A stretch of DNA of 64,000 nucleotides from Methylomarinum sp. Ch1-1 (GTDB taxonomy: Bacteria > Pseudomonadota > Gammaproteobacteria > Methylococcales > Methylomonadaceae). The stretch is taken from NCBI RefSeq assembly GCF_030717995.2, contig NZ_CP157743.1:2506501-2570500 (forward strand), written 5' to 3'. Below are positions 33,006 to 56,776 of this stretch, one piece after another. The notes under the pieces were generated by a model. It made no database searches. It was not told the DNA's origin and was given only the letters and a program-made list of their open reading frames with translations. The translations under genes were made by a program, and so were the position numbers. Position 1 is the first letter of the stretch, and each line of letters opens with the position of its first letter.

Positions 33006-33470
33006 AATCCTGCCCCCGCTACCAAACAAAATAAAAGGCCTTAGATCAATCGATCTAAGGCCTTTTTTGTGCCCGTCATAAAAGCCAGGTATGGTTGTCA
33101 ACGGACAGAGCCGGACGGAGTTTGCAACTCCGTCCGCAACCTTTCTCGATTGCCTCATCTCGGGAAACGCTGGCCGTGCGCTCGTTTCCAAGTTCCAAAA
33201 TTCTTATGCATATTCCGCGTTTTTAACGTATTCCCGGGACGCTGGGCGCAATTATCCCTCAGCTTGTATGCATCGAGTGTGCAGGGTGGATCAAGCGCAA
33301 GCCGATCCGCCAAAAAAATCCGTAAGATCTATAACACATTGCCTCGGTCTTCCATGCTTAGGCGTGGCAGCCTATCGATGACGGCTAAAAAGCTTTGGAC
33401 AAACCCACAAGAACTCCCCGGCAAGCTTGCCAATAACCTATCTAATTGTTACCTTGTTGCATACTGCATC
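33006..33470. repeat. direct repeat, copy 2, leading into the CRISPR-Cas locus
   Basis: Repeats 31500-31965, beginning with the last 19 bases of tRNA-fMet (33006-33024), then the terminator hairpin (33033-33068) and about 400 further bases. Similarity ends near TTGCATAC, shortly before cas6. Frames crossing it, including one that runs into the cas6 frame from 33069, are not supported. No other gene is seen between hicA and cas6. Confidence 0.8.
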
Positions 33471-33486
33471 ACAAGGAGGTCAAAGA

Positions 33487-35586: not shown

Positions 35587-38277
35587 ATGCAAGCAAACGA
35601 TAAGAACGACAACGATTTGTTACAACAATCCTGCAGAATTGCGCTCGCGGCATTTTTGCATGATTTGGGAAAGTTTGCCGAACGCGCCAGAATACCGGTC
35701 GATGAAGAAGTGCTGGCGGCCAACAAACAACTCTATTGTCCGCATAGAAAAAAATACACCGATGATCGCGGTTGGTTCAGTCATGTTCATGCGGCCTATA
35801 CCGGGTTGGCTATGGACCTGATAGAAGATTATATGCCTGACTTAAAAGGGAATGATTTTGCCCCCTTCGGTTCATGGAAAACCCAAGATGTAGATGACTC
35901 GTTTATCAACGCGGCCGCCAAACATCACAAACCGGAAAGTTTTTTACAGTGGATCATTGCTACGGCGGACAGGGTGGCATCGGGGTTTGACCGCGAAGAA
36001 TTCGAAAAATATAACCAGGGCGAAGATCTTACGCGAACGGGCAAAAACCATTACACGGCACGACAACTGACGTTGTTGGAACAAATCAACAAATCGGGCA
36101 TGGCCGAAAAAGATTTTCGTTATCGTTATCCGCTCAAACCGTTGTCGCCCGAGAGCATTTTTCCCGTGGAAGCCGCGAGTTATGAAGGGAACGATGATAC
36201 GGCAGCGCAAAAAGAATATCAGGAATTATGGCGGGGTTTCAATGAAGCGCTCAAGCAAATGCCTAAATCGCACCGTAACAACTGGTCGTTATGGCTGGAT
36301 CATTTTGAAACTCTGTGGGGCGTCTATACGCAAGCCATTCCATCAGCGACGGCATTCAACATTCGTCCGGATGTGTCGCTGTACGATCATTCCCGCGTCG
36401 CAGCGGCCTTAGCGACCGCCTTATGGCGTTATCACCATGAATACGGCGAGACTAGCCAATCTGCTGTTAAAAAGCTGGCTGACCAGCAACAAAGCTGGAA
36501 AGAAGAAAAGTTCCTGCTGATACAAGGGGATTTTTTTGGTATTCAGGATTTCATCTTCGCCAGCGGCGGAGAAACCAATAAGCGAGCTGCCAAATTGCTG
36601 CGCGGTCGCTCATTTTACGTATCGCTACTCAGCGAGTGCGCCGCGCTTAAAGTATTAGATACACTGAATTTGCCGGCTACGAGCCAAGTGATCAATGCAG
36701 CCGGTAAGTTCATGATCGTGGCGCCCAATACCGCAGCAACCATTGAAAAATTGCAGAAAGTCCAACAAGTGCTGGATAAGTGGTTCTTGCAACATAGCTG
36801 GGGACAGGCAGGAGTGGGATTGGCCTGGATGAAAGCGTCCTGCAATGATTTCCGGCGGGGCAAAGAAGGCAAAGCGAGTCCGTATAAACAATTGATCGTT
36901 CAATTATTCGAACAACTGGAGATCATCAAAAACCAGCGCTTCAACCTGTGCGGCGATTCATCGGCGCCAATCTTTTTCAAAGACTTTCTTGAAAGTTTCG
37001 ATAAAAACAAAGGGGTATGCAAAATCGACGGCCGTTCACCGGCAAGTGAACAGATCGATAGCGATACTTATATCAGCGAATTGGCAAAAGATCAGATTGA
37101 AACCGGTCACTGGCTGACTCGGCGAGAGCGCATTTTGATTACCCGCCAATCCTTAGGGCTAACAAGCGCCCTAAAAATTCCCATCTTCGGTTATCACATC
37201 AGCTTTGCAGGAAACGAAGAAACGCAGGGTAAGTTCGGCGAGCAGGCCAGAAACGGCAATTTGCTCAGGGCCTGGGATTTTTCCTTGCCCAAATCGGCCG
37301 ACCGGGCGCTGTGGAATGGCTACGCCCGCCGTGCGATCAACGCCTATGTGCCGCTATTTGATGACAAAGCTCAAGGTGAAGCCGAATTGGGCAAATATGC
37401 GGGCGAAGAAATGCTGGATTTAGGCGAAGCTAAAACCCTCAATCATATCGCCTGCGAAGATCAGATTTTTCAGGAAAATCATCAATGGCAGGGTATCAGT
37501 GCCTTGTCCACTTTAAAAGGCGATGTCGATAATCTCGGTCTGATTTTTCAATCGGGCCTTGGCGACGATGCCAGTTTCAGCAAAACCGCCGCCTTGTCCA
37601 GACAAGTGAATGCGTTCTTTACCACTTATTTACCGTGGCTTTGCCATACGAAGTATCGCAACAGCTATACCGTATTCGCAGGGGGGGACGACTTTTTCCT
37701 GATCGGGCCGTGGAGATCGCAAATCAAGTTGGCAGGAGAAATGCGGCAAGCTTTTCAAAACTATGTCGCGCACAATTCCGAAGTACACTTTTCCGCAGGC
37801 ATCAGCACTACCAAGCCCGGTTTGCCGATTTCACAGTTGGGTGAAATGGCGGAGGAAGCGTTGGAACAGGCCAAAGCGCACAATCCAAATGCGTTGGAGA
37901 TAGCCCCGAAAAATGCCGCGAGCTGTTTCAATCAGCGCATGTTCTGGGAAGAGTTTATGGAGTTGACCGGCACTCGGTATTCGCGACTGCAAGAATTGAG
38001 CGAGCAAAACGGTTTGAGTACCGGCTACGTCTATGGCCTGTTGAACTTGATCGACATGGCGGAAAAGGTCAACGAAAAGCCGGAAAACGCAATTTGGCAC
38101 AGCTATTTTGCTTATCGTACGGTACGCATGCTGGACCGCAATAAACAACTCGACCGAGACCAGCGCAGACGCCGGCAAGCAGAACTGGCCGAAGAAATCG
38201 CCAATACCGGTATTATTCGGCACGGCGGCAATTACCGAGTCGCATTGTTCTGCCATTTGTATCAACAACGCGATTGA
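35587..38277 (+). CDS. cas10: Cas10/Csm1, type III-A large subunit
   Basis: An 896-aa multidomain subunit. The HD nuclease motif is H25-D26 in FLHDLGK. The first Palm domain includes LKGDVDNLGLIFQ (GDxDxxG). The second Palm has the cyclase motif GGDD at 699-702, so cyclic oligoadenylate synthesis from ATP is predicted when target RNA is bound. A zinc-knuckle region and a C-terminal helical domain complete the family layout. The intact HD predicts DNase activity too. The operon is interrupted directly after it by a RAYT gene. Confidence 0.95.
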   Translation: MQANDKNDNDLLQQSCRIALAAFLHDLGKFAERARIPVDEEVLAANKQLYCPHRKKYTDDRGWFSHVHAAYTGLAMDLIEDYMPDLKGNDFAPFGSWKTQDVDDSFINAAAKHHKPESFLQWIIATADRVASGFDREEFEKYNQGEDLTRTGKNHYTARQLTLLEQINKSGMAEKDFRYRYPLKPLSPESIFPVEAASYEGNDDTAAQKEYQELWRGFNEALKQMPKSHRNNWSLWLDHFETLWGVYTQAIPSATAFNIRPDVSLYDHSRVAAALATALWRYHHEYGETSQSAVKKLADQQQSWKEEKFLLIQGDFFGIQDFIFASGGETNKRAAKLLRGRSFYVSLLSECAALKVLDTLNLPATSQVINAAGKFMIVAPNTAATIEKLQKVQQVLDKWFLQHSWGQAGVGLAWMKASCNDFRRGKEGKASPYKQLIVQLFEQLEIIKNQRFNLCGDSSAPIFFKDFLESFDKNKGVCKIDGRSPASEQIDSDTYISELAKDQIETGHWLTRRERILITRQSLGLTSALKIPIFGYHISFAGNEETQGKFGEQARNGNLLRAWDFSLPKSADRALWNGYARRAINAYVPLFDDKAQGEAELGKYAGEEMLDLGEAKTLNHIACEDQIFQENHQWQGISALSTLKGDVDNLGLIFQSGLGDDASFSKTAALSRQVNAFFTTYLPWLCHTKYRNSYTVFAGGDDFFLIGPWRSQIKLAGEMRQAFQNYVAHNSEVHFSAGISTTKPGLPISQLGEMAEEALEQAKAHNPNALEIAPKNAASCFNQRMFWEEFMELTGTRYSRLQELSEQNGLSTGYVYGLLNLIDMAEKVNEKPENAIWHSYFAYRTVRMLDRNKQLDRDQRRRRQAELAEEIANTGIIRHGGNYRVALFCHLYQQRD

Positions 38278-39116: not shown

Positions 39117-39503
39117 ATGGATATCAAACTCGGAAAACCCGGCGAAAAACTCGACCCGGAATTGTTTAACAGTATCGCGCAACAGGCTGCCAAGCGCATA
39201 GCAGGGGACGACCGAAGAAAAAACGATAATAAACCGACTCAGTTGAGAAAGTTTTATGACGAAATTGTTTTATGGGATAGCAAGGTTTTGCAACATCCGG
39301 AAAAATTCGATGAATACTTGCCCTTCATCCGCATGATCAACGCCAAGGCCGCTTATGCCAAAGGCCGAAAGCTGGTGGACGAAAACTTTGTCGACATGGT
39401 TCATAAGGGCTTGCAGCAAGTCGTCTGCCCTAAAACATTACACACTTTCAAATTATTCATGGAAGCCTTCATGGGCTTTTACAAACAAGAACGTCCTAAC
39501 TGA
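39117..39503 (+). CDS. csm2: Csm2, small subunit of type III-A complex
   Basis: A 128-aa helical protein. The motifs LRKFYDEIVLWDSKVL, FIRMINAKAAYAKGR and FKLFMEAFMGFYK match Csm2. It forms the inner filament of the Csm complex along the crRNA-target duplex. Spacing of 14 bp to csm3 indicates co-transcription. Confidence 0.92.
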   Translation: MDIKLGKPGEKLDPELFNSIAQQAAKRIAGDDRRKNDNKPTQLRKFYDEIVLWDSKVLQHPEKFDEYLPFIRMINAKAAYAKGRKLVDENFVDMVHKGLQQVVCPKTLHTFKLFMEAFMGFYKQERPN

Positions 39504-39517: not shown

Positions 39518-40237
39518 ATGCAACTGACCAAAATTCAAAAACTCACCGGCCAGATCGAACTGCTCAGCGGCCTACATATCGGCAGCGGCAATACCGAAAT
39601 TCATATTGGCGGCACCGACAACCCGGTCATCAAGAACCCGATTACCCAGCAACCTTATATCCCAGGTTCCAGCATCAAAGGCAAAATGCGCAGTTTACTG
39701 GAATGGCAATTAGGCGTGGTCGGACAAACAGACGGCCATCCCTTAAGCTTCAAGCATCTGAAAAAACTAGACGGTAAGATGTTGGATGCATCCAAAGCCC
39801 TGATCAAGCTGTTCGGCGGCGCGCCGGACGGCGATATTGCCGTCGATTTATTGGCCGAGATCGGCCCCAGCCGTCTGTCCTTTTGGGATTGCTCGCTGGA
39901 TCCCGAATGGGCTAATGAAATGGATCGCAAAAACCTGTTGCTCACCGAAACCAAGATGGAAAACACGATCGACCGCATCAAAGGCACGGCCGAGCATCCG
40001 CGCAACACCGAGCGCGTCCCCGCCACCGCTCGATTTGATTTTAACCTCACGATACGCGTCCACGATCAAGAAGACCTGACCGATACGATCCTGGTCGGCC
40101 TCAAATTGTTGGAACTGACCGGCCTGGGTGGCTCCGGGTCGCGCGGTTACGGCAAAATAGCCTTTCGCAGCCTGAAACTGGATGACCAGGACATTCAAGC
40201 CAGGCTTGAACAACTCAAACTGCAAGAGGCCGCCTGA
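39518..40237 (+). CDS. csm3: Csm3, backbone RAMP with target-RNA cleavage site
   Basis: A 239-aa RAMP protein forming the complex backbone and cutting target RNA at 6-nt intervals. The catalytic aspartate aligns to D34 (GGTDNPVIKNPI), equivalent to the aspartate shown to be catalytic in other Csm3 proteins. PGSSIKGKMRSLLEW and GLGGSGSRGYGKI are family motifs. Its stop overlaps the csm4 start. Confidence 0.95.
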   Translation: MQLTKIQKLTGQIELLSGLHIGSGNTEIHIGGTDNPVIKNPITQQPYIPGSSIKGKMRSLLEWQLGVVGQTDGHPLSFKHLKKLDGKMLDASKALIKLFGGAPDGDIAVDLLAEIGPSRLSFWDCSLDPEWANEMDRKNLLLTETKMENTIDRIKGTAEHPRNTERVPATARFDFNLTIRVHDQEDLTDTILVGLKLLELTGLGGSGSRGYGKIAFRSLKLDDQDIQARLEQLKLQEAA

Positions 40238-41193
40238 TGCAAAGCTTCTGTGTGACGTTACGCCCTTTATCGGCATTTGCCACGCCGTTAAAGGGCGACA
40301 CGCTGTTTGGACAACTGTGTTGGGCAATTCGCAATCGTCTCGGTGAAGCGTACTTGACCGAATTACTGGATGGCTACACAGACGGCAAGCCATTCGCGGT
40401 GGTTTCCGATGCGTTTCCTGAGCATTATTTACCGTTGCCCAAACTGCCGGGCAGTTTTTATCAAGCCATAGCCGGAGAAGATCGTAAAGCGGTCAAGAAG
40501 CGCTGCTGGCTGCCTGAAACAGAGATTGAAAAACCGGTTTCAGAATGGTTGGGCCTGGCCCGCAATGCTTCGGAGCTTGCCGGAGAGTATTCCAAATTGA
40601 GCGAAAAGCATCCTCAATCTCACAATACCATCGATCGACGAACCAACACGACGGGTGAGGGCGGTTTTGCGCCTTACAGCATCGAACAAGAATGGTTTAT
40701 CCCCGGCCTCAAATGGTCTTTTTATCTAGTGCTCGACAGCGGGCGGTTGAGCGCCGAAGATTGCGAACAATGCCTGGCTGACATCGGCAATATCGGCTTT
40801 GGCCGTGACGCCAGCATTGGGCTCGGCAAATTCGCGGTTGAGGATTTTCAAGCCAGGCCCTTGCCGACGCAGGACAACGCCAATGCCTGTCTGACGCTCG
40901 CGCCTTGCGCACCCCAAGGCCTGGGGTTTGACGGGCGGCTTAGTTTCTACCAGTTATTTACCCGCTTTGGCCGGCATGGAGATATCGCCGTACACCAGGA
41001 AGGCAAACCGTTTAAAAATCCGGTGCTACTGGCGCAGACTGCCGCCGTATTCGGGACAAATCCGCCCGAATCCGGTTTTATCGGACAAGGCATCGGCGGC
41101 AATGGCGAATTATCCAAAACACTGTCTGCGACGGTGCATCAAGGTTATGCGCCGGTTATCGCGATCAACGTTAATTCCAAGGAATGTTCATGA
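40237..41193 (+). CDS. csm4: Csm4, crRNA 5'-handle-binding RAMP
   Basis: A 318-aa RAMP protein. The starting motif FATPLKGDTLFGQLCWAIRNRLG and the glycine-rich GFGRDASIGLGKF fit Csm4, which caps the crRNA 5' handle and contacts Cas10. It overlaps csm3 by one base and csm5 by four bases. Confidence 0.9.
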   Translation: MQSFCVTLRPLSAFATPLKGDTLFGQLCWAIRNRLGEAYLTELLDGYTDGKPFAVVSDAFPEHYLPLPKLPGSFYQAIAGEDRKAVKKRCWLPETEIEKPVSEWLGLARNASELAGEYSKLSEKHPQSHNTIDRRTNTTGEGGFAPYSIEQEWFIPGLKWSFYLVLDSGRLSAEDCEQCLADIGNIGFGRDASIGLGKFAVEDFQARPLPTQDNANACLTLAPCAPQGLGFDGRLSFYQLFTRFGRHGDIAVHQEGKPFKNPVLLAQTAAVFGTNPPESGFIGQGIGGNGELSKTLSATVHQGYAPVIAINVNSKECS

Positions 41194-42842
41194 CCCATTT
41201 TTTGAATCATTACACGCTGAAATATACGCCGCTGTCGCCCTTGCATATCGGTGCCGATGAAAGTTATGAGCCGGGCAACTATGTGATCGATGATGAAGCC
41301 GGCGCGTTATATGGCTTCGATAGTCAAGCAGCATTGGCTGGTTTAAGCGAAAACGAGAGACAGCAGTTATTGGCCATCGTCAATGGCAAGCCGGACGACA
41401 CCATGCTGACCAAAGTGCAAGCGTTTTTTCATAACCACCGTGAAAAGCTGTTGGCGTTTGCCAAGCAGCCTATCCCAACGGCGAGTGGCATAAAGTCACT
41501 TTACCAAAAACGGATCGGCAAAACAGCCCAACACGAAGGCAATGGCAGGCGAATCATCAATAAACTGGAAATCGAACGGACCTTTTATAACCCGGTCGAT
41601 GCCACACCGTTACTGCCGGGTAGCAGCATCAAAGGCGCCATTCGCACGGCTCTTTTAGATGCGATTAACGACGGAGAACGGCTTAAAGATCGTAGAGAGC
41701 GTAACCAACAATTCCAGCAGCGTTTGTTGGCAGGTAACTTCCATACCGACCCGATGCGGCTGATTTCTATCGGCGATGCCGCTTGGCAGGGCAGCGTTGA
41801 CAAACCGGCCTGCCAGGTGAGATTCGCGGTAAACCGCAAACGCAAGCCCGTTGTGAAAAATGGCCAATTAATCAAATCACAGGCTGAAACCCGCGAGCTC
41901 TATCAATTGTTGGAATGTATTGCTCCCAATCATTACCAGGGTTTTACAGGTAGTTTAACGCTGCACGATACGCAATCGATTGCGCAAGACGATAGAAAAT
42001 TACCTAAACAACGCTTCCACTGGACGATAAAAGAGATCGCTAAAGCCTGCAATGGGTTTTACATGGAACTGTTCTGGCGAGAATTGAACGCCATGAAGGA
42101 ACGACATTATTTAAAATCCGATTGGCTGAACCAAATCGAGCAATTGATGGAAAACGACCTGTTGAAACGGCTGAATGACGGAGAGGCTTTCATGCTCCGG
42201 ATTGGCCGCCATAGCGGTGCCGAGGCTTTGACACTCGGCGGCGTTCGCAGTATCAAGATTATGCAAGGTCGTGGCGAAAAGCCTAAATGGGAAAAAGAGC
42301 CTAAGACCTGGTGGCTGGTCGCCGATGATATTGCCGATCATAAGTCCTTGCTGCCGTTCGGTTGGGTGTTGGTTGAAATCGATCCTCAATCGCATGACAC
42401 GCAATTGCAGAATTGGTTGGAAAAGAGCCACGGCGATTTAACCGAGTGGATGCTGCAACAACTCGACAAGCAAAACCGGCTCAAACAACAAGCCGAATTG
42501 CGGCTGCGTAAAAAACAAGAGCAAAAAGAAGTCGAACGACAGCAGGCCGAAGCATTGCGTGTGAAACAACAAGAGGAAGAACGGCGCCGCGCTTCGATGA
42601 CGCCGGAGCAATTGCAAATCGATGCATTAAGACAAAAGCTGCAACAAAAGCAAGCTTCCAACCTGCGTGAGCAGATTGGTGGCCCGCTTTATGGCGACAT
42701 GCGGGAGTTGATCAAGCAAACTGAAGCTTGGCCGGCTGGTGCCAAGTCCGAATTACTGGACGTTGCTAAAGACGTGTTGGCGTTTATCGGCGCCAACGGC
42801 AACAAAAAAGCCAAGGAACTGCTCAAGGCTTTGCAACCATGA
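41190..42842 (+). CDS. csm5: Csm5 with long coiled-coil C-terminal extension
   Basis: A 550-aa RAMP protein. The N-terminal LSPLHIGADESYEPGNYV and the central LLPGSSIKGAIRTALLDA are Csm5 motifs; Csm5 sits at the crRNA 3' end and helps its maturation. ATG 41190 is preferred over 41184 because AAGGA lies six bases upstream and it overlaps the csm4 stop as ATGA. The last 140 residues are unusual: a highly charged coiled coil (about 425-475, rich in Lys/Gln/Glu/Arg) and a small helical tail. Confidence 0.9.
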   Translation: MTHFLNHYTLKYTPLSPLHIGADESYEPGNYVIDDEAGALYGFDSQAALAGLSENERQQLLAIVNGKPDDTMLTKVQAFFHNHREKLLAFAKQPIPTASGIKSLYQKRIGKTAQHEGNGRRIINKLEIERTFYNPVDATPLLPGSSIKGAIRTALLDAINDGERLKDRRERNQQFQQRLLAGNFHTDPMRLISIGDAAWQGSVDKPACQVRFAVNRKRKPVVKNGQLIKSQAETRELYQLLECIAPNHYQGFTGSLTLHDTQSIAQDDRKLPKQRFHWTIKEIAKACNGFYMELFWRELNAMKERHYLKSDWLNQIEQLMENDLLKRLNDGEAFMLRIGRHSGAEALTLGGVRSIKIMQGRGEKPKWEKEPKTWWLVADDIADHKSLLPFGWVLVEIDPQSHDTQLQNWLEKSHGDLTEWMLQQLDKQNRLKQQAELRLRKKQEQKEVERQQAEALRVKQQEEERRRASMTPEQLQIDALRQKLQQKQASNLREQIGGPLYGDMRELIKQTEAWPAGAKSELLDVAKDVLAFIGANGNKKAKELLKALQP

Positions 42843-44712: not shown

Positions 44713-44826
44713 TGAAGCTCAGCGTCCAGTAACCGCGGGAGTGATGCCTGCTGGTTCGCGCGCCGGAACCATAAAAATTCAGGCCCCTAAAAAAACGATT
44801 GCAACGCAAAGAAATAACACCAACGT

Positions 44827-46110
44827 ATGAACAGCAAACCAATTATTCTCGTCTGCACCGTAGGTGGCAGTCATCAGCCCATCGTCAGCGCGATCAACGA
44901 AATGCGACCCGATTATGTCGTTTTTATTTGCACAGATAAAGATCCGGCCACTGGCCGACCCGGCTCGAATATTCAGATTACGGGAAAAGGCCATTGCATC
45001 AAGGCCCATAATAACGACGATAAGCCGACTCTACCGGCGATCCCACAACAGACGGGACTATCACAAGAGGCTTATGAAGTCGTATTGACGGTTTCTGACG
45101 ATCTAGATCGTATTTATCTCGATTGCAGTCGGGTGATTGACTCCGTCTTGAAAAAATTTCCCGGGGCCGGCATTGTCGCCGATTATACCGGCGGCACCAA
45201 ATCTATGAGCGCCGGGTTGGCGATGGCGGCGCTGGAAAATCCTAACATCGAACTGCAGTTGGTGACCGGAAACCGCTCCGACCTGATCAAAGTCCATGAC
45301 GGTTCGCAATACACCGCACTGGCCAATATCGAGCAAATCCGTTTTCAGCGGACCCTTGCGCCTTTCCGCGCGTGTTGGGAGAGATTCGCTTACGGTGAAG
45401 CCGAAGCGGGGCTGAAAAGGATACAAACGCCCAGAAATACTCAGCTAAGGGCCGCATTGAACCGATTCCGGGATTTAAGCACGGCCTTTGCGGAATGGGA
45501 TAATTTCAATCATGAAATCGCCCTGAGAATACTGCGGCCTTATGCGCCAAGCATGCCGTCAACTATGAAGCCCTATCTCGGTATAGCCATGCGCCTGAAT
45601 GACAATGATCCCAAAAAACGCGATGCGGCGCGACTTTACGATTTATATCTGAACGCCCTGCGCCGAGCCGAACAGGGACGCTTTGATGATGCGATTGCCC
45701 GGATTTACCGGCTGATAGAATGGACTGCGCAATGGATGCTGCTTCATCGCTGCGGCATCGATACTGCCAATGTGCCGGAAACGGAAATTCCGGACGGCAT
45801 GCAACTGAGCCTAAATCGCGAGCAACAATGGCAAGCCGGCCTTTACAATGCCTGGCAGTTGATCAAGCTGAAAACCGATGGCGCCGCGGCCCAGTTTATA
45901 GAACAGGAAGATAAAACCTTGTTGAACCATATCAAGATTCGCAACCAGTCCATTCTGGCGCACGGCTTTTCGCCGGTGCGCCGCGAGCATTGGCACGAGT
46001 TAGTCCGCTTTATCGAGCACAAATTCATTCCGATGTTACTGGCGGAGACAGCTTGCGTTGGGATAAAAACATTGCCTAACCAACTGCCGAACAGATATGA
46101 ATTGAATTAA
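44827..46110 (+). CDS. CARF-HEPN ribonuclease (Csm6-like, TIGR02710 family)
   Basis: A 427-aa protein. The N-terminal CARF domain (about 1-160) has IILVCTVGGSHQPIVSAI and VADYTGGTKSMSAGLAMAAL, the loops that bind cyclic oligoadenylates. The C-terminal helical part carries a HEPN motif R372-x6-H379 (IRNQSILAHG). By family it should become a nonspecific RNase when Cas10's second messenger binds, causing dormancy or death of infected cells. It lies downstream of the IS4 element, in the same direction as the cas genes. Confidence 0.87.
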   Translation: MNSKPIILVCTVGGSHQPIVSAINEMRPDYVVFICTDKDPATGRPGSNIQITGKGHCIKAHNNDDKPTLPAIPQQTGLSQEAYEVVLTVSDDLDRIYLDCSRVIDSVLKKFPGAGIVADYTGGTKSMSAGLAMAALENPNIELQLVTGNRSDLIKVHDGSQYTALANIEQIRFQRTLAPFRACWERFAYGEAEAGLKRIQTPRNTQLRAALNRFRDLSTAFAEWDNFNHEIALRILRPYAPSMPSTMKPYLGIAMRLNDNDPKKRDAARLYDLYLNALRRAEQGRFDDAIARIYRLIEWTAQWMLLHRCGIDTANVPETEIPDGMQLSLNREQQWQAGLYNAWQLIKLKTDGAAAQFIEQEDKTLLNHIKIRNQSILAHGFSPVRREHWHELVRFIEHKFIPMLLAETACVGIKTLPNQLPNRYELN

Positions 46111-46231
46111 TGCCGGACAAACGTGTGGTTTGTTGAATTCGATTATGCCCATTTTCCGACGAGAAAACATCGTCGGACGCTTAGTGTTTTACGCCGCCGG
46201 AGCGGCGCAGCATGCGTTCCCACGGAGACCG

Positions 46232-46378: not shown

Positions 46379-46471
46379 CGGAGACTGTGGGAACGAGGCA
46401 ATTCTGTAAGCGGGCTTTAGCGCATCGTCTAAACCGCGCTACCTAGAGACGATTAATCAACGACACGAAAC

Positions 46472-48583
46472 ATGACCAATATATTGCTATGTACCTTGGG
46501 CGCAAGCTGGGCGGTGGCGCCTGAAATATACGGCTTCACCAGCCCCGGCAAACTGCCGCTGTATCGACATCATCCGAACAAGCCGGAATTAGACAAACTC
46601 CTGGCGGAATACGATCTTGAAGAAGTCGACGAAATATGGGTTTGCACGACCCAGGGCGAAGCCACGCAAAAAAGCCTGGCCAGTCTCGTGCAATGGGCTG
46701 ACCTGTTGCCGAAACCGCCGATCCTTCGAATTTGGATGGCCGAGGCCACCAACGAACTGACGACACAGCATGAATGCCGGCATATTCGGGAATTGATCGT
46801 CAGGGCGGTCCTCGCGGCGCACGAATATGCGCAGGGTGGGCAAGTGACCTTGTCGCTGGCCGGCGGACGCAAGACGATGAGCGCCGACATGCAGTGGGCG
46901 GCCACGGTATTCGGCTGCAGCGCCCTGCTGCATGTGATCGGCGCGGAATTCAAACAGATGCCTGAATCACTGAAAAATGCAGCCCCGGAATTATTCACGA
47001 AGCCGCTCATTGCGGATAATTGCGCCGCCATCATGCCGCTGATCACCGGCCAAACCCAGCGCAGCGATTTATTGGATATTCGCATGGACGACTGCGAGGC
47101 GGTCACAGCGCAAGCGTTTCCGCTGCCGTTGCCGGAAACGGGGCAGAGCGTCGTCTGGCCTGCGCCCGATAAATGGTTGGAACAGGAACTCAAGAATCGG
47201 GAAAAAACCGGCAGCCGCCTGCTGGGCAATTATTTTTTCGACCTGAGCCGGCATGAAAAGCATGAAAACTGGCGCAGTCTCTATCGACTGTCGCCGCGAC
47301 TGATCAATCATCTGCGTCAGACACCCTTGGGACCTGAACACAAAAACTGGCTGGAGCGCTTGCCAAAAGCCGATTTGCACCGGCATCTGGGCGGCTGCCT
47401 GAACTTGGAAGATCAGCGACAAGTCGGACTGTCCGTTTGGCAAGCGTTGTCAAAGCAAGAAAAAGCGAAAGCGTTGGCAGCGGTGAAGACCTTGCTCGAT
47501 GAATCCGACCGGCATTGGGATTGGAATTGGATCGACTCGATCAAAAATTGCGACAACAAAGCGCATCTTTCGGCGGCCTTGCTGGTCGAGGCCAGCGACG
47601 CTCAATTACATAATAACCTGTGGCAGGCGACCGAACCGCGCGTGGCGCTCAAGCATGGCGAACGGGGATTTTCCGCCTACGAGCGGCCCGGCGATTTGAG
47701 TGGATCGACGCTGTTGTCTTCGCCGGCGGCAATCCCTAGCTATGCCGAATGCATCGTTCGCCAATGTGTCGTGGAACGCTTGGCCTATGTGGAACTGCGC
47801 GGCAGTCCACAAAAATACGGCGACGGACTGGTCTTTCTGGAAAGCTTTTACCAAGCTCTGCAACAGGCATTGGCAAGCTTGCCGGCTCGGTTAAAACCGG
47901 AATTCCGCTTTATCATCATCGCCGACCGGCGCAAAAATGAGCAATTGCAACAAACCATCGCTCTTGCCGTACAGGCTAAACGACGCTGGCCGGATTTCAT
48001 CGTCGGCCTGGATTTGGCGGGTGATGAATCAGAGCTGCTTCCGGACAACATCGGCGAGGTTTTCTTGCCGGCCTTCGAAGTCTGCCTGCCGATCACGATC
48101 CATGCCGGCGAAGGCGAGGAGGCCGGGGCGATCTGGAAGGCCGCTTATTTGCTCCATGCCGATCGCATTGGTCACGGTTTGACGTTGAACGACCATCCGG
48201 AACTGGCCGAACGCTTTCGCAACCGCGACATCTGCTTGGAACTATGCCCGACTTCCAATATCGAGGTGGTCGGTTTCCGGGTTCCCGGCAACCCGGCGAC
48301 CGAGCAGTTTTCCGAATATCCGTTGATGTCGTTGTGGGACAAGGGCTTGCCGCTAACCGTGTGCACCGATAACCCCGGTATCAGTCGAACGACCTTGACC
48401 GGCGAATATTTGATGGCGGCGGCGATGAGCGATGGCAAATTGACCTTGTGGGATGCGTTGGCAATGATCAAGCAAGGCTTTGTACACGCTTTTTTACCTG
48501 GCGGAGAAAAAGAAAGGTTATTGAAACGCTTTGATGCCGACATCTACCGTTATCTGAGCGAGACATTCGATTTTAATTCCTAG
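46472..48583 (+). CDS. cad1: CARF-adenosine deaminase fusion (Cad1-type effector)
   Basis: A 703-aa fusion. Residues 1 to about 190 are a CARF domain, with ILLCTLGASWAVAPEIY and VTLSLAGGRKTMSADMQ. After a linker, residues about 295-690 form an adenosine-deaminase fold with the full zinc site: H303 and H305 (ADLHRHLGG), H544 with catalytic E547 (IHAGEGEE), H568 (RIGHGLTL) and D633 (CTDNPGIS). Cad1 proteins in type III systems are known to deaminate ATP to ITP when cyclic oligoadenylate binds; that activity here is inferred. The Card1-type gene follows by 14 bp. Confidence 0.92.
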   Translation: MTNILLCTLGASWAVAPEIYGFTSPGKLPLYRHHPNKPELDKLLAEYDLEEVDEIWVCTTQGEATQKSLASLVQWADLLPKPPILRIWMAEATNELTTQHECRHIRELIVRAVLAAHEYAQGGQVTLSLAGGRKTMSADMQWAATVFGCSALLHVIGAEFKQMPESLKNAAPELFTKPLIADNCAAIMPLITGQTQRSDLLDIRMDDCEAVTAQAFPLPLPETGQSVVWPAPDKWLEQELKNREKTGSRLLGNYFFDLSRHEKHENWRSLYRLSPRLINHLRQTPLGPEHKNWLERLPKADLHRHLGGCLNLEDQRQVGLSVWQALSKQEKAKALAAVKTLLDESDRHWDWNWIDSIKNCDNKAHLSAALLVEASDAQLHNNLWQATEPRVALKHGERGFSAYERPGDLSGSTLLSSPAAIPSYAECIVRQCVVERLAYVELRGSPQKYGDGLVFLESFYQALQQALASLPARLKPEFRFIIIADRRKNEQLQQTIALAVQAKRRWPDFIVGLDLAGDESELLPDNIGEVFLPAFEVCLPITIHAGEGEEAGAIWKAAYLLHADRIGHGLTLNDHPELAERFRNRDICLELCPTSNIEVVGFRVPGNPATEQFSEYPLMSLWDKGLPLTVCTDNPGISRTTLTGEYLMAAAMSDGKLTLWDALAMIKQGFVHAFLPGGEKERLLKRFDADIYRYLSETFDFNS

Positions 48584-48597
48584 ACCCTATAAAAACA

Positions 48598-49728
48598 ATG
48601 AAATACCAAACCCATTTAGTGCTGATTTCAGCGCAATCCGTGCCGAATATCACGCCGATTCTGGACGAACGTTTCCGACCGGACCGTGTCGTCATGCTGG
48701 TGTCGCCGGATATGCGGGCGCGCGCCGACGACCTGGAAAGGATTTATCAGCCACGCGGCGTCAAAGTCCAGCGATGGTTCGTCGACGACGCTTGGGATGT
48801 CGAGCACATCCGCAACCGGGTCATGGAACTGCTGACGGAATATGAGCAAGACGACATCGTCCTTAACGCAACCGGCGGCACCAAGCCGATGAGCATCGCC
48901 GCCTACGAGGTGTTCAGAACCTTCGATAAAGCCATTTTTTATGTGCATCCGGAAGCCGACCGCTTGATTTGGATGCATCCCGGTGACCGGGATACGGTTG
49001 ATCTGGCGGATAAGATCAAGATTAAGGAATATTTGCAAAGCTACGGTGCGGTGGCTGTAGATTCTTATCAGGGTGGCGTTAGCGCCGAGTTGCGAGAATT
49101 GGCCGGACAACTGGCGCGCAATATCGAAGTCTTCAGTGATGCGTTAGGCAGCTTGAATTTCTATGCCGCGAAGGCGGATAACCGGGAATGTTTAAGTCCC
49201 GAAGTGAAAATGGACGGGCGGCATGATTTCTGGAAGCTGATTGACTTGTTTGAGCATGCCGGGTTAGCGGATAAACAAGGATGCAGATTGCGGTTTCGCG
49301 ACGAGGACGCCCGCTTTATCGCCAATGGCGGCTGGCTGGAATCCTATGCTTACGCCTGTTGCCTGAACATTAAAAAATCCCGTAACTTGCAGGATGTCGG
49401 GCAAAGCGTCGTCGTGGAGAAAGCCAACAACGTAAAAAATGAATTGGATGTGGCGTTATTGAAAGACAACCGGCTGCATATTCTGGAATGTAAAACCAGT
49501 CAATTGTCGGCGAAATCGCCGGGTGGCCCTAAGGCCGACCAGATGCTATACAAATTGGGCAGTATTCGCGATAATCTGGCTGGATTGCAGGCCCGTTCGA
49601 TGTTGGTTAGCGCTAATCCGTTAAAAGATGCGCATTTGCAACGGGCGAGGGAATTAAAAATCGAAACCTGTAGCCATCGGGAATTACAATTTTTGGAGGA
49701 AAAACTCGGTGAATGGATCAAAAAATGA
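48598..49728 (+). CDS. card1: CARF-PD-(D/E)xK nuclease (Card1/Can2 type)
   Basis: A 376-aa protein. The N-terminal CARF domain (about 1-145) has LISAQSVPNITPIL and LNATGGTKPMSIAAYEV. The C-terminal nuclease domain has D284 (NELDVALL) and E297-x-K299 (LHILECKTSQ), the PD-(D/E)xK site, and a preceding acidic GGWLESYAY helix. Family members nick DNA and/or cut RNA when cyclic tetra-adenylate binds. It ends 79 bp before the first CRISPR repeat. Confidence 0.92.
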   Translation: MKYQTHLVLISAQSVPNITPILDERFRPDRVVMLVSPDMRARADDLERIYQPRGVKVQRWFVDDAWDVEHIRNRVMELLTEYEQDDIVLNATGGTKPMSIAAYEVFRTFDKAIFYVHPEADRLIWMHPGDRDTVDLADKIKIKEYLQSYGAVAVDSYQGGVSAELRELAGQLARNIEVFSDALGSLNFYAAKADNRECLSPEVKMDGRHDFWKLIDLFEHAGLADKQGCRLRFRDEDARFIANGGWLESYAYACCLNIKKSRNLQDVGQSVVVEKANNVKNELDVALLKDNRLHILECKTSQLSAKSPGGPKADQMLYKLGSIRDNLAGLQARSMLVSANPLKDAHLQRARELKIETCSHRELQFLEEKLGEWIKK

Positions 49729-49807
49729 GGCTAACTTTTCGAAACCCGGGATTTCCGGCAACCCCCTTTGTAACCCCATGATATTAAAAGGAGAAAAACG
49801 ACGAGCA
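49729..49807 (+). promoter_or_regulatory. CRISPR leader (short)
   Basis: The 79 bp between card1 and the first repeat include CCGGCAACCCCCTTTGTAAC and an A/G-rich stretch next to the first repeat. The leader is placed here because repeats are intact at this end and truncated at the other. It is short, so array transcription may partly depend on read-through from card1. No clear -35/-10 is assigned. Confidence 0.55.
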
Positions 49808-52800
49808 ATTTAAAACCTAGACCTTATTAAGAAGGGATTAAGACTCCTTGGCCGGTGGTTACTTATTCCGCCTCTAATTTAAAACCTAGACCTTATTAAG
49901 AAGGGATTAAGACAGTAGTCCTGCGGACCAAGTTTACTGTAACTTGGTATTTAAAACCTAGACCTTATTAAGAAGGGATTAAGACTCGTAACATTGCTTG
50001 AATTCTTCTTTATTCATAGATTTAAAACCTAGACCTTATTAAGAAGGGATTAAGACAGAATGTACAATTGTTTGTTATTGATTTGCATTTAAAACCTAGA
50101 CCTTATTAAGAAGGGATTAAGACGTTCATTCCTTCCCCGGTAGAGCTATTACCCTATTTAAAACCTAGACCTTATTAAGAAGGGATTAAGACAAGTTAGA
50201 TTAGTAATGGTATGAGGTATTAAAGAATTTAAAACCTAGACCTTATTAAGAAGGGATTAAGACCTAACAACTACTTCGTTTGTTAACTCTGTATTTAAAA
50301 CCTAGACCTTATTAAGAAGGGATTAAGACGTAAGTCAAGTAATAGTTTTGCAGTTACATTGATTTAAAACCTAGACCTTATTAAGAAGGGATTAAGACGT
50401 TGAATTTATTGCTGAACATTTCACGTATTGTTATTTAAAACCTAGACCTTATTAAGAAGGGATTAAGACGACATTTTCTGGATATCAAGAAAATGCCCTT
50501 ATTTAAAACCTAGACCTTATTAAGAAGGGATTAAGACAATCGCCGCACTATACTGTTCGATCGCGATCAGTTATTTAAAACCTAGACCTTATTAAGAAGG
50601 GATTAAGACTAAGCAAGCTATATCGTTTGTAGTTTAGAATGTAATTTAAAACCTAGACCTTATTAAGAAGGGATTAAGACTGGTGGACTTTAGTGGTTTT
50701 CCAGCCACCATGCATTTAAAACCTAGACCTTATTAAGAAGGGATTAAGACGGTTATTAATTGCGAGTTGCTTGTTTTTTGTATATTTAAAACCTAGACCT
50801 TATTAAGAAGGGATTAAGACGGTGATAAAATCACCAAGAGGGTTAGGAGCAGTTCATTTAAAACCTAGACCTTATTAAGAAGGGATTAAGACTTCTTTTC
50901 TTGTCATGATCTTATCCTCCCGAAGGATTTAAAACCTAGACCTTATTAAGAAGGGATTAAGACGCTTACCGAGCAGAACGGTACAACAATCACAGCATTT
51001 AAAACCTAGACCTTATTAAGAAGGGATTAAGACTGTGTTACGGTACGGAACCTTTCCTCCTTTCTCCATTTAAAACCTAGACCTTATTAAGAAGGGATTA
51101 AGACATACCTGCCGTACAAACTCTTCTCTTGTCATGATATTTAAAACCTAGACCTTATTAAGAAGGGATTAAGACAAAAGAATAACAAAGGCAGGCAAGA
51201 TAATATATTTAAAACCTAGACCTTATTAAGAAGGGATTAAGACAGTATCCGCAAAACAGTTTTTAGTTTGCTCGATTTAAAACCTAGACCTTATTAAGAA
51301 GGGATTAAGACCTAAATTTGCTGAACAGTTCGCGAATTGCTGAATTTAAAACCTAGACCTTATTAAGAAGGGATTAAGACGGGTTTCAACTGCGGAAGTT
51401 TCTTTGATGATGATATTTAAAACCTAGACCTTATTAAGAAGGGATTAAGACGGACAAGGCGACTAATCGCCTCTCTAACGTCATTTAAAACCTAGACCTT
51501 ATTAAGAAGGGATTAAGACTGTTCGGCAGGTCGAAATGGACGTTATAAGTATTTAAAACCTAGACCTTATTAAGAAGGGATTAAGACTTTTCCTGCGCGT
51601 TCGAATACTTCCCGCATTTTCATTTAAAACCTAGACCTTATTAAGAAGGGATTAAGACTTCCCGAATTGCTGATGTTGTGTTGTGTAAATTTAAAACCTA
51701 GACCTTATTAAGAAGGGATTAAGACACATTTAGACCCGAAAGAGCCTGAGAAGTAAATTTAAAACCTAGACCTTATTAAGAAGGGATTAAGACCTAAGTA
51801 CCCCCGCACATACTTCTCAACTTCCTTATTTAAAACCTAGACCTTATTAAGAAGGGATTAAGACCTTTCATGACGTACCGATTCACTAAAATCTTTAAAA
51901 TTTAAAACCTAGACCTTATTAAGAAGGGATTAAGACGAATGTACAATTGTTTGTTGCCGATTTGCTCACATTTAAAACCTAGACCTTATTAAGAAGGGAT
52001 TAAGACAAGTAAGTTTGCCAACTGTTTCGCCTTCTTTTGGCATTTAAAACCTAGACCTTATTAAGAAGGGATTAAGACGGCGAATATGGCGGCACGTTCG
52101 GCGATGATGTCGGATTTAAAACCTAGACCTTATTAAGAAGGGATTAAGACCTGCCAACCATACTGGCCATGCCTGTTGGCTGATTTAAAACCTAGACCTT
52201 ATTAAGAAGGGATTAAGACACATGGTTTCCAGCATACACTTGCTGTATAAATATTTAAAACCTAGACCTTATTAAGAAGGGATTAAGACTTAAATTTGCT
52301 GAACATTTCACGAATTGTTGTATTTAAAACCTAGACCTTATTAAGAAGGGATTAAGACTAATTTTTCTTTGACAATGTCCTTGTTATTTACATTTAAAAC
52401 CTAGACCTTATTAAGAAGGGATTAAGACCAGAAATTACCACTGATATACATTTTTGCTTCATTTAAAACCTAGACCTTATTAAGAAGGGATTAAGACAAA
52501 TATTCACTCGTATGTCCGGCTTTGCTTGCATTTAAAACCTAGACCTTATTAAGAAGGGATTAAGACGCAGGATTATGTTAGGATCGTCGTCATGGATAAA
52601 ATTTAAAACCTAGACCTTATTAAGAAGGGATTAAGACCTACTGTGCATTTGATGTATGTTTTCATGGTATTTAAAACCTAGACCTTATTAAGAAGGGATT
52701 AAGACGTAACAGCTGGACTTTGGACATCGCAACACTATTTAAAACCTAGACCTTATTAAGAAGGGATTAAGACAAGAAAATCAAGTATATTAAGGTTCTT

Positions 52801-54237
52801 GTTGGTATTTAAAACCTAGACCTTATTAAGAAGGGATTAAGACCTGTAGGATTTTTTATTGAAGCCTGAATTCAACTTTATTTAAAACCTAGACCTTATT
52901 AAGAAGGGATTAAGACGTTAGCCTTAGACTAATAACTCTTTTACAATATATTTAAAACCTAGACCTTATTAAGAAGGGATTAAGACATATTTTTGTTTAA
53001 CACATACACTTACATTATTATTTAAAACCTAGACCTTATTAAGAAGGGATTAAGACAGGTATTAAAGATATACCCCTCCCGTTTTCAATTTAAAACCTAG
53101 ACCTTATTAAGAAGGGATTAAGACCTTTAGCGGATCGTAAGCCTTGACCACTTCCATTTAAAACCTAGACCTTATTAAGAAGGGATTAAGACGATATTTT
53201 TTATTATCATCTTCGTTTATACACTCAATTTAAAACCTAGACCTTATTAAGAAGGGATTAAGACCTGTTCTGTTTGAATATATTAACATTTTATATTTAA
53301 AACCTAGACCTTATTAAGAAGGGATTAAGACGCTTCCCACTTGGCTTTTTTTCTCCTTTTAAAGAGATTTAAAACCTAGACCTTATTAAGAAGGGATTAA
53401 GACTTCGATATATCTGATATATGTTCTAATTTTTGATTTAAAACCTAGACCTTATTAAGAAGGGATTAAGACCTCTTGATCGTACCAGTCCTGATAGTTT
53501 ACCAGATTTAAAACCTAGACCTTATTAAGAAGGGATTAAGACAACACTCCCTTTATGAACTCTGCTCTTGTCATATTTAAAACCTAGACCTTATTAAGAA
53601 GGGATTAAGACTAGTGATTCAGGGTTACCCCCGTGTTTAACAAAATTTAAAACCTAGACCTTATTAAGAAGGGATTAAGACCATAATGTCTTTCGGCAAC
53701 TGGGCGCGACTGTCACATTTAAAACCTAGACCTTATTAAGAAGGGATTAAGACCTGCTTTCTCTGTCCATGTGTGTAGTTCATTTAATTTAAAACCTAGA
53801 CCTTATTAAGAAGGGATTAAGACCGACAGCTGATCGCGGCTATCACCAGCCGTGGTGATTTAAAACCTAGACCTTATTAAGAAGGGATTAAGACCTTCCC
53901 AAATCCGCATCGCTGTGGATTGTTGCCCATTTAAAACCTAGACCTTATTAAGAAGGGATTAAGACGTAGTTTAGAATGTATAATTGCTTACTGCCAATTT
54001 ATTTAAAACCTAGACCTTATTAAGAAGGGATTAAGACCTGTAATTCCACACGTTCGCCAGCCCGCGGTAATTTAAAACCTAGACCTTATTAAGAAGGGAT
54101 TAAGACATACTGGTGAAGTGTGCCCTAAGACCACTGATGTATTTAAAACCTAGACCTTATTAAGAAGGGATTAAGACGTCTGCTTAATTACCTAATGCTG
54201 TTTGAATACGAGAATTTAAAACCTAGACCTTATTAAG
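49808..54237 (+). CRISPR. CRISPR array, 64 repeats and 63 spacers
   Basis: Repeat of 37 bp: it starts ATTTAAAACCTAGACC, continues TTATTAAGAAGGG and ends ATTAAGAC. I count 63 full, essentially identical copies plus a terminal copy (54214-54237) cut after 24 bases. Period is about 70 bp; spacers are about 30-35 bp. The truncated end marks the oldest side, so transcription runs on the plus strand and the crRNA 5' handle would be AUUAAGAC. Several spacers are related to each other (see findings). The array separates the CARF effectors from the adaptation genes. Confidence 0.98.
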
Positions 54238-54471
54238 TCCATCGAAAGAAGTTTATTGGTATAAATCATCATCCATGATAACTGGGTTCCGGCAATCCAT
54301 GCCGGAACGACGAAGTCAAAGACAAGTAAGTTTTTTCAGGTCACTTATGCGGTCGATTGTTACCAATCAGATTTCCACTAGCATCTGGTTTGGAAGGAAA
54401 ACAATCACCAATCAGAGTTCGACAAGCTTGTCGATGCATGGCTTTTTTTTGTCTTGTTCTAGGATGAAGGC
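54238..54471. other. gap between array and cas2
   Basis: No gene is supported here. A small palindrome, TTCCGGCAATCCATGCCGGAA, lies at about 54285-54305, and a TTGTCTTGTTCTAGGATGAAGG stretch gives cas2 its ribosome-binding site. A 66-codon frame from 54275 has no recognisable features. Confidence 0.5.
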
Positions 54472-54756
54472 ATGAGTCATCGAATATTATTCATCGCCGC
54501 TTACGACATACGCGACAACAAAAGATTGAGACGGGCGTTAAAGGTCTTGCGCGGCTATGCTTCGGGAGGGCAAAAGTCGGTGTTTGAATGTTTCTTAACC
54601 GCCTCGGAAAGAAGCGAATTGCTGGATGAAGTGAGGGCGGTGATCGATAGCGAGGCAGACAGTTTCTTTTTGTTGAGGCTGGATGTTCGTTGTCGTGTTA
54701 TGACTCTAGGTAAGGCGGTTCCGCCGCAGGATGGTGGTTTTTATTATGTGGGGTAA
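54472..54756 (+). CDS. cas2: Cas2 (first copy)
   Basis: A 94-aa ferredoxin-fold protein. The first strand, ILFIAAYDIRDNKRLRRALKVL, carries the conserved Asp (YDI), and GGQKSVFECFLT follows as usual. Cas2 dimers bridge Cas1 dimers during spacer integration. It is followed after 3 bp by cas1. Confidence 0.92.
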   Translation: MSHRILFIAAYDIRDNKRLRRALKVLRGYASGGQKSVFECFLTASERSELLDEVRAVIDSEADSFFLLRLDVRCRVMTLGKAVPPQDGGFYYVG

Positions 54757-54759
54757 AAG

Positions 54760-55725
54760 GTGAGTACGTTATATCTGGATCGTAAAGGGCTGGCGTTGAA
54801 ACTGGATGGGCATGCGATGGCGTTGTATGAAAATGATGTTAAGCGCGGCACAATTCCATTCAGGATGCTGGAGAAAGTCGTGGTCAGGGGGAATGTGACT
54901 CTGGAAAGCCGTTTGTTATGCGCATTGGGAAGGAATCAGGTCGATATCTTGTTTTTGTCCGGGCGCAATAGCCAGCGTGGCACGATGTCGTTTTCGCATA
55001 AGCATAATGATGCCAAGCGCCGCTTGACTCAGTATAAAGTAAGCTTGGGGCAGGAATTGCAGCGTAATTTGGCGACAGGGTTGGTGTTGGCTAAACTGGA
55101 AAAACAGTTGCAAATGCTAGAAAGCTGCTTGTCTAAACGGCCAGATTTGAGAAAGACTTTCACGAGTGCAATACGGTCTCTGCAGGTGAACCGACGGGGG
55201 ATCATGGAACAGAACGAGGGTGTGGCGTCAGTGGCGCAATTGCGAGGTTATGAAGGTGCGGCCGCAGCCGCTTATTTTTCCGCATTCACTCAATTGTTTA
55301 GCCCTAAGTTGGGTTTTAACGCTCGTAATAAGCGGCCGCCCACCGATCCGGTGAATGCCTGTCTATCGCTGGGCTACACTTTACTGCATTTTGAAGCGGT
55401 CGGTGTTTGCTATATGGTTGGTTTGGAGCCCATGCTGGGGTTTTATCATGAACCCGCATTCGGCAGGGAATCGCTGGCTTGTGATCTGATCGAGCCGCTC
55501 AGGCCTCGTCTGGATGCATTGGTCTGGTCGTTGTTCCGGGACCGAAAGCTTCGGGTCGAGCAGTTTGTTTTTGAAAATAAGCGTTGCTTGTTGAATAAGG
55601 ACGGTCGCAAGGTTTTTTATGCCGAATATGAACGGTTTGCTCATCCGGTACGGCGCCTGCTTCGTTTGCAGGGTCATAGTTTGGCGCGCTTTTATCTGCA
55701 AGCCGAAAAAGGTGTGTCGCCATGA
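54760..55725 (+). CDS. cas1: Cas1 integrase (catalytic copy)
   Basis: A 321-aa protein starting at GTG 54760 (MSTLYLDRKGLALKLDG). The N-terminal beta domain is followed by the helical domain with the metal-binding triad E165 (LRGYEGAAAAAYF), H230 (GFYHEPAFGR) and D242 (LACDLIEPLRP). It should integrate new spacers. No reverse transcriptase or Cas6 domain is fused. It overlaps the next gene by four bases. Confidence 0.95.
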   Translation: MSTLYLDRKGLALKLDGHAMALYENDVKRGTIPFRMLEKVVVRGNVTLESRLLCALGRNQVDILFLSGRNSQRGTMSFSHKHNDAKRRLTQYKVSLGQELQRNLATGLVLAKLEKQLQMLESCLSKRPDLRKTFTSAIRSLQVNRRGIMEQNEGVASVAQLRGYEGAAAAAYFSAFTQLFSPKLGFNARNKRPPTDPVNACLSLGYTLLHFEAVGVCYMVGLEPMLGFYHEPAFGRESLACDLIEPLRPRLDALVWSLFRDRKLRVEQFVFENKRCLLNKDGRKVFYAEYERFAHPVRRLLRLQGHSLARFYLQAEKGVSP

Positions 55726-56468
55726 AGCCGCTTTATGTGCAAGGCAAGGCCGGGATCAAGGTGGAATTTGATGATCCGGCTTTAGCGGTCAGTGTGCCGG
55801 ATAAGTCGCGTCAGCTGTTTCCGCTTGCCAGGGTTTCTCGAGTGATTGTTTCAGGTTCCGTGGATTGGTCGATGGCGGCGTTGTTTGCTTGTGCGGATGC
55901 CGGCATCTCTGTAATTTTTTTGACTGACGGCGGTAAGGTCCGTAGCCGTTGGTTAGGAAGTTTGCGCAACCGACAGAGTTTTATGCAAAATTTGCAGGAA
56001 ATGCTGCAAAAAACCGATGCCGAGGTGTTTTATCGAAACTGGTATGCCGGCATGCAACGGATGGCGGTCAGAAGCACGGCGCGACGCTTGGGTTTTTCCG
56101 ATTGGCAATTAGCGGATGCGGACTGTTTTAATGGCTGGTTGGACGATTATCTGGATGCGGAATGGTCGGCTGTCGTTGGCAGGTTCAACGGAATGTTGGT
56201 GAGTGCGGTGTTGCAATATCTGGGCGATTTGGGACTGGATTCTGGCGATGATTCTGTCGCGGGCGAACGGTTCTTTTTGGCGGATGATTTGGCGGCTTTG
56301 CTGTTGTGGGATTTTTATCCTCCATTGGTTTGCTTGCGGAAACAATCGGGTGTTTGTCCTGATCATGCCGGCTTGGTGGTATTGTTCGAACGGCGAAAAC
56401 AGCGCATCGAACATTTATTGCGCGGTTTGCTGAATAAGCTGCACCAATGTTTAAGAGAGAACAGATAA
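55722..56468 (+). CDS. Cas1-like paralogue, apparently non-catalytic
   Basis: A 248-aa protein. The N-terminal part (LYVQGKAGIKVEFDD, SRVIVSGSVDWSMAALFACADAGISVIFLT) aligns with the Cas1 beta domain. The C-terminal part (FNGMLVSAVLQYLGDLG, ERFFLADDLAALLLWDFYPP) aligns with the Cas1 core. I find no counterpart of the catalytic Glu, and the GFYHEP histidine is absent; one acidic position (ADDL) remains. It is about 70 residues shorter than Cas1. It may be a structural partner in a heteromeric integrase. Overlaps cas1 by four bases and the second cas2 by one. Confidence 0.8.
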   Translation: MKPLYVQGKAGIKVEFDDPALAVSVPDKSRQLFPLARVSRVIVSGSVDWSMAALFACADAGISVIFLTDGGKVRSRWLGSLRNRQSFMQNLQEMLQKTDAEVFYRNWYAGMQRMAVRSTARRLGFSDWQLADADCFNGWLDDYLDAEWSAVVGRFNGMLVSAVLQYLGDLGLDSGDDSVAGERFFLADDLAALLLWDFYPPLVCLRKQSGVCPDHAGLVVLFERRKQRIEHLLRGLLNKLHQCLRENR

Positions 56469-56776
56469 TGGCGATCAATAAACAACAACAGTATTTGGTG
56501 ATTTATGATATTGCCGATCCCAAACGTTTGGGAAAAACTCATCGCTTGCTAAAAAAACAAGGCCTGCCGGTGCAATATTCGGTGTTTTCGGTGGTGGCGA
56601 GCGGTTCTGGAATCAAGCATTTGTTACAAAGCATCGAAGAGATTATTAACGAAAAAGAAGATGACGTGCGCTGTTATGCCTTGCCGGCTAATATCGACTG
56701 TAAAACGATAGGCAGACAGTATTTTCCGGACGATATTGCCTTGTTCAGCAATGGGGTTGCAAGGCTGTTGGTTTAA
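56468..56776 (+). CDS. cas2: Cas2 (second, divergent copy)
   Basis: A 102-aa Cas2-type protein beginning MAINKQQQYLVIYDIADPKR, with LKKQGLPVQYSVFSVVAS and VRCYALPANIDCKTIG. It retains the YDI aspartate. ATG 56468 overlaps the stop of the Cas1-like gene; an earlier in-frame start at 56447 lies inside that gene. It differs clearly from the first Cas2, so it is not a recent duplication. Last gene of the locus, converging on rsgA. Confidence 0.88.
   Translation: MAINKQQQYLVIYDIADPKRLGKTHRLLKKQGLPVQYSVFSVVASGSGIKHLLQSIEEIINEKEDDVRCYALPANIDCKTIGRQYFPDDIALFSNGVARLLV

Follow-up and report, generated by a model that had tools for sequence, protein, structure and literature searches.

We analyzed a 64,000-nt window of the Methylomarinum sp. 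Ch1-1 genome, in which a type III-A CRISPR-Cas locus is followed by a CRISPR array and then by the four-gene cassette cas2-cas1-cas1'-cas2' (Table 1). The type III-A assignment rests on cas10 and csm2 to csm5 standing next to the array, with csm2 and csm4 recognized by position and through relatives; a model seeded with the window csm4 finds an ORF at locus L129 that PADLOC labels Csm4. Four CARF genes lie within this one locus (34480-49728): an NE0113 family gene, a CARF-HEPN gene, a CARF-adenosine deaminase gene, which by name we take to be Cad1-like, and a Card1 gene. The gap between cas10 and csm2 holds an ORF (38339-38872) with a weak DUF6772 match as its only Pfam hit, which on impression we assume to resemble a REP-associated tyrosine transposase. 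Between csm5 and the CARF-HEPN gene, a DDE transposase gene is encoded on the minus strand (43262-44449). In the stretch from 49 to 57 kb, Rfam returned no matches at its gathering scores.

Table 1. Features of the type III-A locus, array and adaptation cassette (positions within the 64,000-nt window)
Feature	Position	Strand	Details
cas6	33427..34452	+	PF10040 8.1e-21; true start probably further in
CARF protein, NE0113 family	34480..35586	+	PF09623 7.7e-53
cas10/csm1	35587..38277	+	PF22335 3.3e-29, PF18211
csm2	39117..39503	+	by position; model seeded with csm2 finds L129 ORF that is PADLOC Csm2
csm3	39518..40237	+	PF03787 2.8e-16
csm4	40237..41193	+	by position; PF03787 0.0043, below cut-off
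csm5	41184..42842	+	PF03787 2.5e-09; by position
CARF-HEPN (Csx1/Csm6-like)	44827..46110	+	PADLOC 5.2e-147
CARF-adenosine deaminase	46472..48583	+	PADLOC CARF_ADA 1.3e-239
Card1-like CARF nuclease	48598..49728	+	PF09002 1.3e-30, PF23400 1.7e-18
Probable leader	49729..49807	+	79 bp between Card1 gene and first repeat
CRISPR array	49808..54250	+	37-nt repeat in 63 identical copies, followed by one degenerate copy
cas2	54472..54756	+	94 aa; GGQKSVFE type, specific to the twin module; PF09827 1.8e-14
cas1	54760..55725	+	321 aa; GTG start; PF01867 9.2e-74; catalytic residues intact
cas1'	55722..56468	+	248 aa; degenerate full-fold Cas1, Glu and His gone, D189 present
cas2'	56447..56776	+	109 aa from the listed start, possibly starting at Met8; QYSVF type; PF09827 5.9e-16

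The array contains 62 spacers between identical repeats, all unique and 29-36 nt long. The degenerate terminal repeat sits at the cas2-side end, so the leader probably lies at the Card1 end. Allowing up to 3 mismatches, we found no match to the array repeat elsewhere in the 4.77-Mb genome, and a comparison of the spacers with 50,697 phage records gave a single chance-like 24-nt match (E 0.4). The same genome carries three further CRISPR arrays (L112, L113, L114): one with an I-C-like repeat, one forming part of a III-B locus that is complete and has only one adaptation module, and one whose spacers are uniformly 32 nt long (I-F-like).

All four cassette proteins pass their Pfam cut-offs, and an ORF check bore out the gene coordinates given in a first-pass annotation of this DNA. 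That annotation described four overlapping genes, which is accurate for two junctions out of three. The shared stretch is 4 nt for cas1 and cas1'; for cas1' and cas2' it is 22 nt with the listed start, or 1 nt if the family-conserved Met8 is the true Cas2' start. Between cas2 and cas1 there is a 3-nt gap.

The first-pass annotation also claimed that the second Cas1-like protein is a Cas1 that has lost the catalytic Glu and His, while Cas1 keeps its triad. Alignments confirmed both parts: E165, H230 and D242 of Cas1 are invariant in all 73 aligned sequences, whereas in Cas1' neither residue is conserved at the Glu and His sites and only the Asp of the Glu/His/Asp site remains (D189, retained in 55 of 63). 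Profile searches and structure prediction agree that Cas1' is Cas1-like. Its Pfam match is confined to the N-terminal residues 10-92 (33 bits, cut-off 22.3), the PADLOC profile PDLC01185 ("Cas1, diverged variant, second in the loci") covers residues 5-241 (9.1e-13), and hhalign recovers homology to Cas1 over essentially the whole length (probability 98.4, E 1e-14, 242 columns, residues 1-245 of 248). The predicted structure has the Cas1 fold, with an N-terminal beta-domain and a C-terminal helical domain. At least 70% conservation is found at 47 Cas1' columns, 30 of them within residues 3-71, and W107 is invariant (63/63). Median dN/dS was 0.15 for Cas1' (18 pairs), 0.08 for Cas1 (21), 0.11 for Cas2 (55) and 0.14 for Cas2' (20), from pairs that share sequences and are therefore not independent. 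The four-gene set as a whole is thus conserved and under purifying selection, and these comparisons show that Cas1', judged from its residues, is catalytically degenerate yet conserved under purifying selection.

We surveyed the cassette at two scales. Within the class of the host, PDLC01185 matched 25 of 369 genomes at 26 places; in the stretches fetched around these, all four genes were present at 18 (the window's own included), three genes at 2, and no separate Cas1' at 6. A scan of 84,980 species genomes for the Cas2 pattern yielded 281 relatives; we examined the best 80, and some genomes contributed two loci. The order cas2-cas1-cas1'-cas2' was identical in 66 of these best 80 loci, with median spacings of 3, -4 and -1 nt; recurrence on this scale means that the cassette is not a chance arrangement. 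Among the remainder, L055 has the four genes in a different order, L111 has Cas1' and Cas2' in a single ORF, a contig end cuts six loci (L061, L069, L072, L080, L082, L102), and six are exceptions to the four-gene set (L045, L056, L087, L094, L097, L109). The 66 loci plus L055 fall in Pseudomonadota (57), Acidobacteriota (9) and Nitrospirota (1). With models built from the III-A proteins of the window, which make only type III visible, 55 of the 80 loci showed an associated gene, and 33 showed cas10. One cassette (L047) belongs to Methylotuvimicrobium buryatense 5G, a genetically tractable methanotroph. Cas1' had no match in 72,556 plasmid records, and the GGQKS Cas2 pattern was absent from the viral contigs scanned.

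Several loci depart from the standard layout in individual ways. A histidine kinase gene (HisKA and HATPase_c) lies between cas1 and cas1' at L059:1356-2147, L063:1651-2442 (assigned through a near-identical sequence) and L068:3933-4715, in the identical slot across hosts, Crenothrix and a Methylococcales bin. A short contig (L142, G630:C279) carries cas2-cas1'-cas2', with cas1 not found there. L097 has a lone GGQKS cas2, and a Cas1' match of 66 bits lies on another contig of that genome (G405:C91).

The degeneracy of Cas1' could mean that it is a functionless duplicate in decay, and cas1' is indeed interrupted in L052, one of the 66, and broken or lost in L087 and L094. In the L087 genome, where cas1' is lost, the only other matches are weak N-domain hits of the kind that ordinary Cas1 gives. 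Yet the gene is present in 66 of the best 80 of 281 loci and in three phyla, and with its invariant tryptophan and low dN/dS, decay without function is extremely improbable.

The closest relatives of the cassette are loci with a single adaptation module. Across 301 genomes of the host's order, the Cas1 subfamily occurs in 58 genomes, at 60 places in all; from a side-by-side reading of two tables, Cas1' adjoins it at 48 places and is absent at 12 (G691:C176 among them). One of the 12 is the complete III-B locus of Methylomarinum sp. Ch1-1 itself, and two others are III-A. In all 12, the Cas2 scores higher as Cas2' than as Cas2. The two kinds of Cas2 are separated in the tree with support of 0.998, the Cas2 of single-module locus L113 falling on the Cas2' side (0.998), and G32, G33, Q34, K35, S36 and E39 of the twin-module Cas2 are invariant in 81 of 81 sequences. 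An unrelated I-C-like Cas2 likewise scores better as Cas2' (52 versus 29 bits). To some extent, then, "Cas2'-like" only says that a protein is not a GGQKS Cas2, and Cas2' may, from these scores, be just the ordinary kind of Cas2. What the twin loci have in addition is the GGQKS Cas2 and Cas1' together. Since the single loci hold only Cas1 and a Cas2'-like Cas2, Cas1-Cas2' looks like the ordinary core, to which Cas2 and Cas1' would have been added.

In the careful tree, the 11 single-module Cas1 sequences form one clade (100/99), while FastTree nests the III-B single Cas1 of the same genome within the twin clade (0.977). The twin rows formed one group in 0 of 200 bootstrap trees, but an AU test does not reject that grouping (p = 0.25). 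The careful tree is compatible with more than one position of the single clade, whose members may have lost the pair or may have split off before it appeared.

The same-genome III-B locus has a related Cas1 and a repeat that ends in the same GAAGGGATTAAGAC as the twin array. Cas1' and Cas2 might insulate the module by making it specific to its own array, which would keep new spacers out of similar arrays in that cell; the twin repeat, found only beside the twin module, agrees with this. A second related module was, however, looked for in few of the twin genomes, and we regard insulation as very unlikely to be the explanation.

The first-pass annotation proposed that a dead subunit could set spacer length. 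We compared arrays with at least 7 spacers, 31 from twin and 6 from single loci; L135 (single, 5 spacers) was excluded, and the other single loci had no usable array or were unscanned (L130, L131, L132, L136, L145). The median standard deviation (sd) of spacer length was 0.71 nt for single and 1.38 nt for twin arrays (Mann-Whitney p = 0.011), and the median fraction of spacers within 1 nt of the array median was 0.94 and 0.71, respectively (p = 0.0007). When pooled, 88 of 93 single and 879 of 1,254 twin spacers lay no more than 1 nt from their array median. The 13 methanotroph twin arrays alone also differed from the singles (p = 0.037 for sd, 0.005 for the fraction), and a thin III-A-only stratum of 2 single and 7 twin arrays gave p = 0.056. 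There is overlap between the groups: for L134, a single array, the sd reaches 2.22, though 21 of its 22 spacers are within 1 nt of the median, and tight twin arrays exist (L126, sd 0.63; L092, sd 0.76). The array retained by L087 after the loss of cas1' (10 repeats, 9 spacers) has an sd of 0.74, a tightness matched by a few intact twin arrays. All 6 single arrays have 36-nt repeats; of the 31 twin arrays, 24 have 37-nt and 4 have 36-nt repeats, and the other three have ambiguous repeat ends (28, 21 and 30 nt). Because the six single arrays belong to one Cas1 clade, the spacer contrast amounts to about one evolutionary comparison. The looser spacing of twin arrays thus fits the proposed role, as a correlation drawn from few independent events.

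Given these observations, our preferred reading, to which we assign a probability of roughly 0.6, is that the four genes encode one heteromeric integrase serving the adjacent type III-A array, in which a pseudo-enzyme Cas1 would alter the ruler. The canonical hexamer contains four Cas1 subunits, two of which perform the strand transfers, and the N-terminal beta-domain of Cas1 is its dimerization domain. Through its own N-terminal beta-domain, Cas1' would take a non-catalytic Cas1 seat in such a Cas1-Cas2 hexamer, where an inactive paralogue would be costless; Cas2 would pair with Cas2' or bridge Cas1', and both strand transfers would be made by Cas1 alone. The Cas2 and Cas1' pair would shift the geometry of the complex and with it the ruler, giving looser spacers and usually one more repeat base. 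Cas1' appears dispensable for the chemistry as such, because L087 keeps an array without cas1' and the single clade lacks the pair.

The overlapping genes, together with a fusion at L111, argue for a single assembly. The fusion is a natural 343-aa ORF (L111:11244-12272) in which a Cas1 N-terminal domain is linked with Cas2', each scoring above its Pfam cut-off. Its structure model is confident for the Cas1 N-domain and the Cas2 domain and for nothing else, and with a pTM of 0.37 it yields no interface.

The same overlaps and the Cas1'-Cas2' fusion weigh against a reading with two complexes, in which Cas1-Cas2' would be the integrase and a non-integrating Cas1'-Cas2 would capture, protect or trim prespacers or regulate the integrase. 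The single-module loci, where Cas1 and a Cas2'-like Cas2 occur alone in all 12, and the co-occurrence of Cas2 and Cas1' as an added pair speak for such a division. Tree-distance co-variation bears on the choice of partners: across 58 loci, it favors Cas1'-Cas2 (bootstrap P = 0.034) and Cas1-Cas2' (0.046). In 38 thinned loci, the co-variation still peaks for Cas1'-Cas2 (0.43), but neither pairing is any longer favored (0.11 and 0.55). The signal on partner choice is suggestive on 57-58 loci and not robust on 38. We consider two separate complexes unlikely.

If the single heteromeric integrase is correct, its unequal composition, with an inactive Cas1 and two unlike Cas2 proteins, would, speculatively, deprive the hexamer of its two-fold symmetry. 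Such an asymmetric integrase might tell the ends of a prespacer apart and thereby set orientation relative to the leader and admit wider lengths in type III, which is PAM-less; we offer this as a tentative and rather doubtful extension. To our knowledge, how a two-fold symmetric integrase orients spacers and how spacer length is controlled are open questions, at their sharpest in PAM-less type III. The symmetric type I-F integrase still has to orient itself on the leader, according to the relevant passage of PMC12259127.

An RNA-derived substrate had also been suggested, and this part is not supported. Pfam finds no reverse transcriptase (RT) among 17 ORFs of the window. A crude RT motif scan of the 80 loci with flanks of up to 10 kb returned only three ORFs, all of one family (L044, L047, L051), which look like argininosuccinate synthase. 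A Pfam search of 48 relatives' genomes, the host's own excluded, found RTs in 24, and in the approximately nine of these whose RT positions were inspected by eye, none lay within a cassette. The suggestion is abandoned on these grounds, notwithstanding one Antarctic contig given as cas2-cas1-cas1-RT in a passage of PMC11742911.

The first-pass annotation did not recognize the arrangement as a described adaptation type. In the literature searched, taken without supplements, we found neither a functional account of Cas1' nor a description of the four genes, and the portion of the 2025 classification available to us (PMC12669027) has nothing on the twin cassette and does not use the term "two cas1". 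The claim of novelty nevertheless holds only in part. PDLC01185 models the same second Cas1 and retrieved the cassette in other genomes, as a profile name for which we found no functional account. A 2018 methanotroph paper mentions "two copies of cas1/cas2" in the type III-A system of Methylobacter sp. KS41 (PMC6119699), the same strain name as that of L046, which has the full cassette; the KS41 passage itself is silent on the degeneracy of the second Cas1 and on the conserved order. As far as these excerpts go, the Cas1' protein is already in PADLOC and "two cas1/cas2" is already in print, and the arrangement is thus not wholly undescribed.

Among known systems, the canonical Cas1-Cas2 integrase, built of two Cas1 dimers and one Cas2 dimer, has Cas1 and Cas2 subunits homologous to the twin-module proteins. 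It differs in having one Cas1 and one Cas2 and in being C2-symmetric, as the passage on the type I-F Cas1-2/3 complex describes (PMC12259127). RT-Cas1 modules are likewise type III with a modified Cas1 machinery; they carry an RT, unlike the twin locus of the window and, as far as the crude scan reaches, the 80 loci. The closest Cas1 kin that we saw are the single-module type III relatives such as L113, which share the 3' end of the repeat with the twin array and differ from twin loci in having no Cas1', no GGQKS Cas2, 36-nt repeats and tighter spacers. A conserved natural module with a dead Cas1 and two Cas2 proteins can readily be compared with its kin, both within this genome and within the family, from which exactly that added pair is missing.
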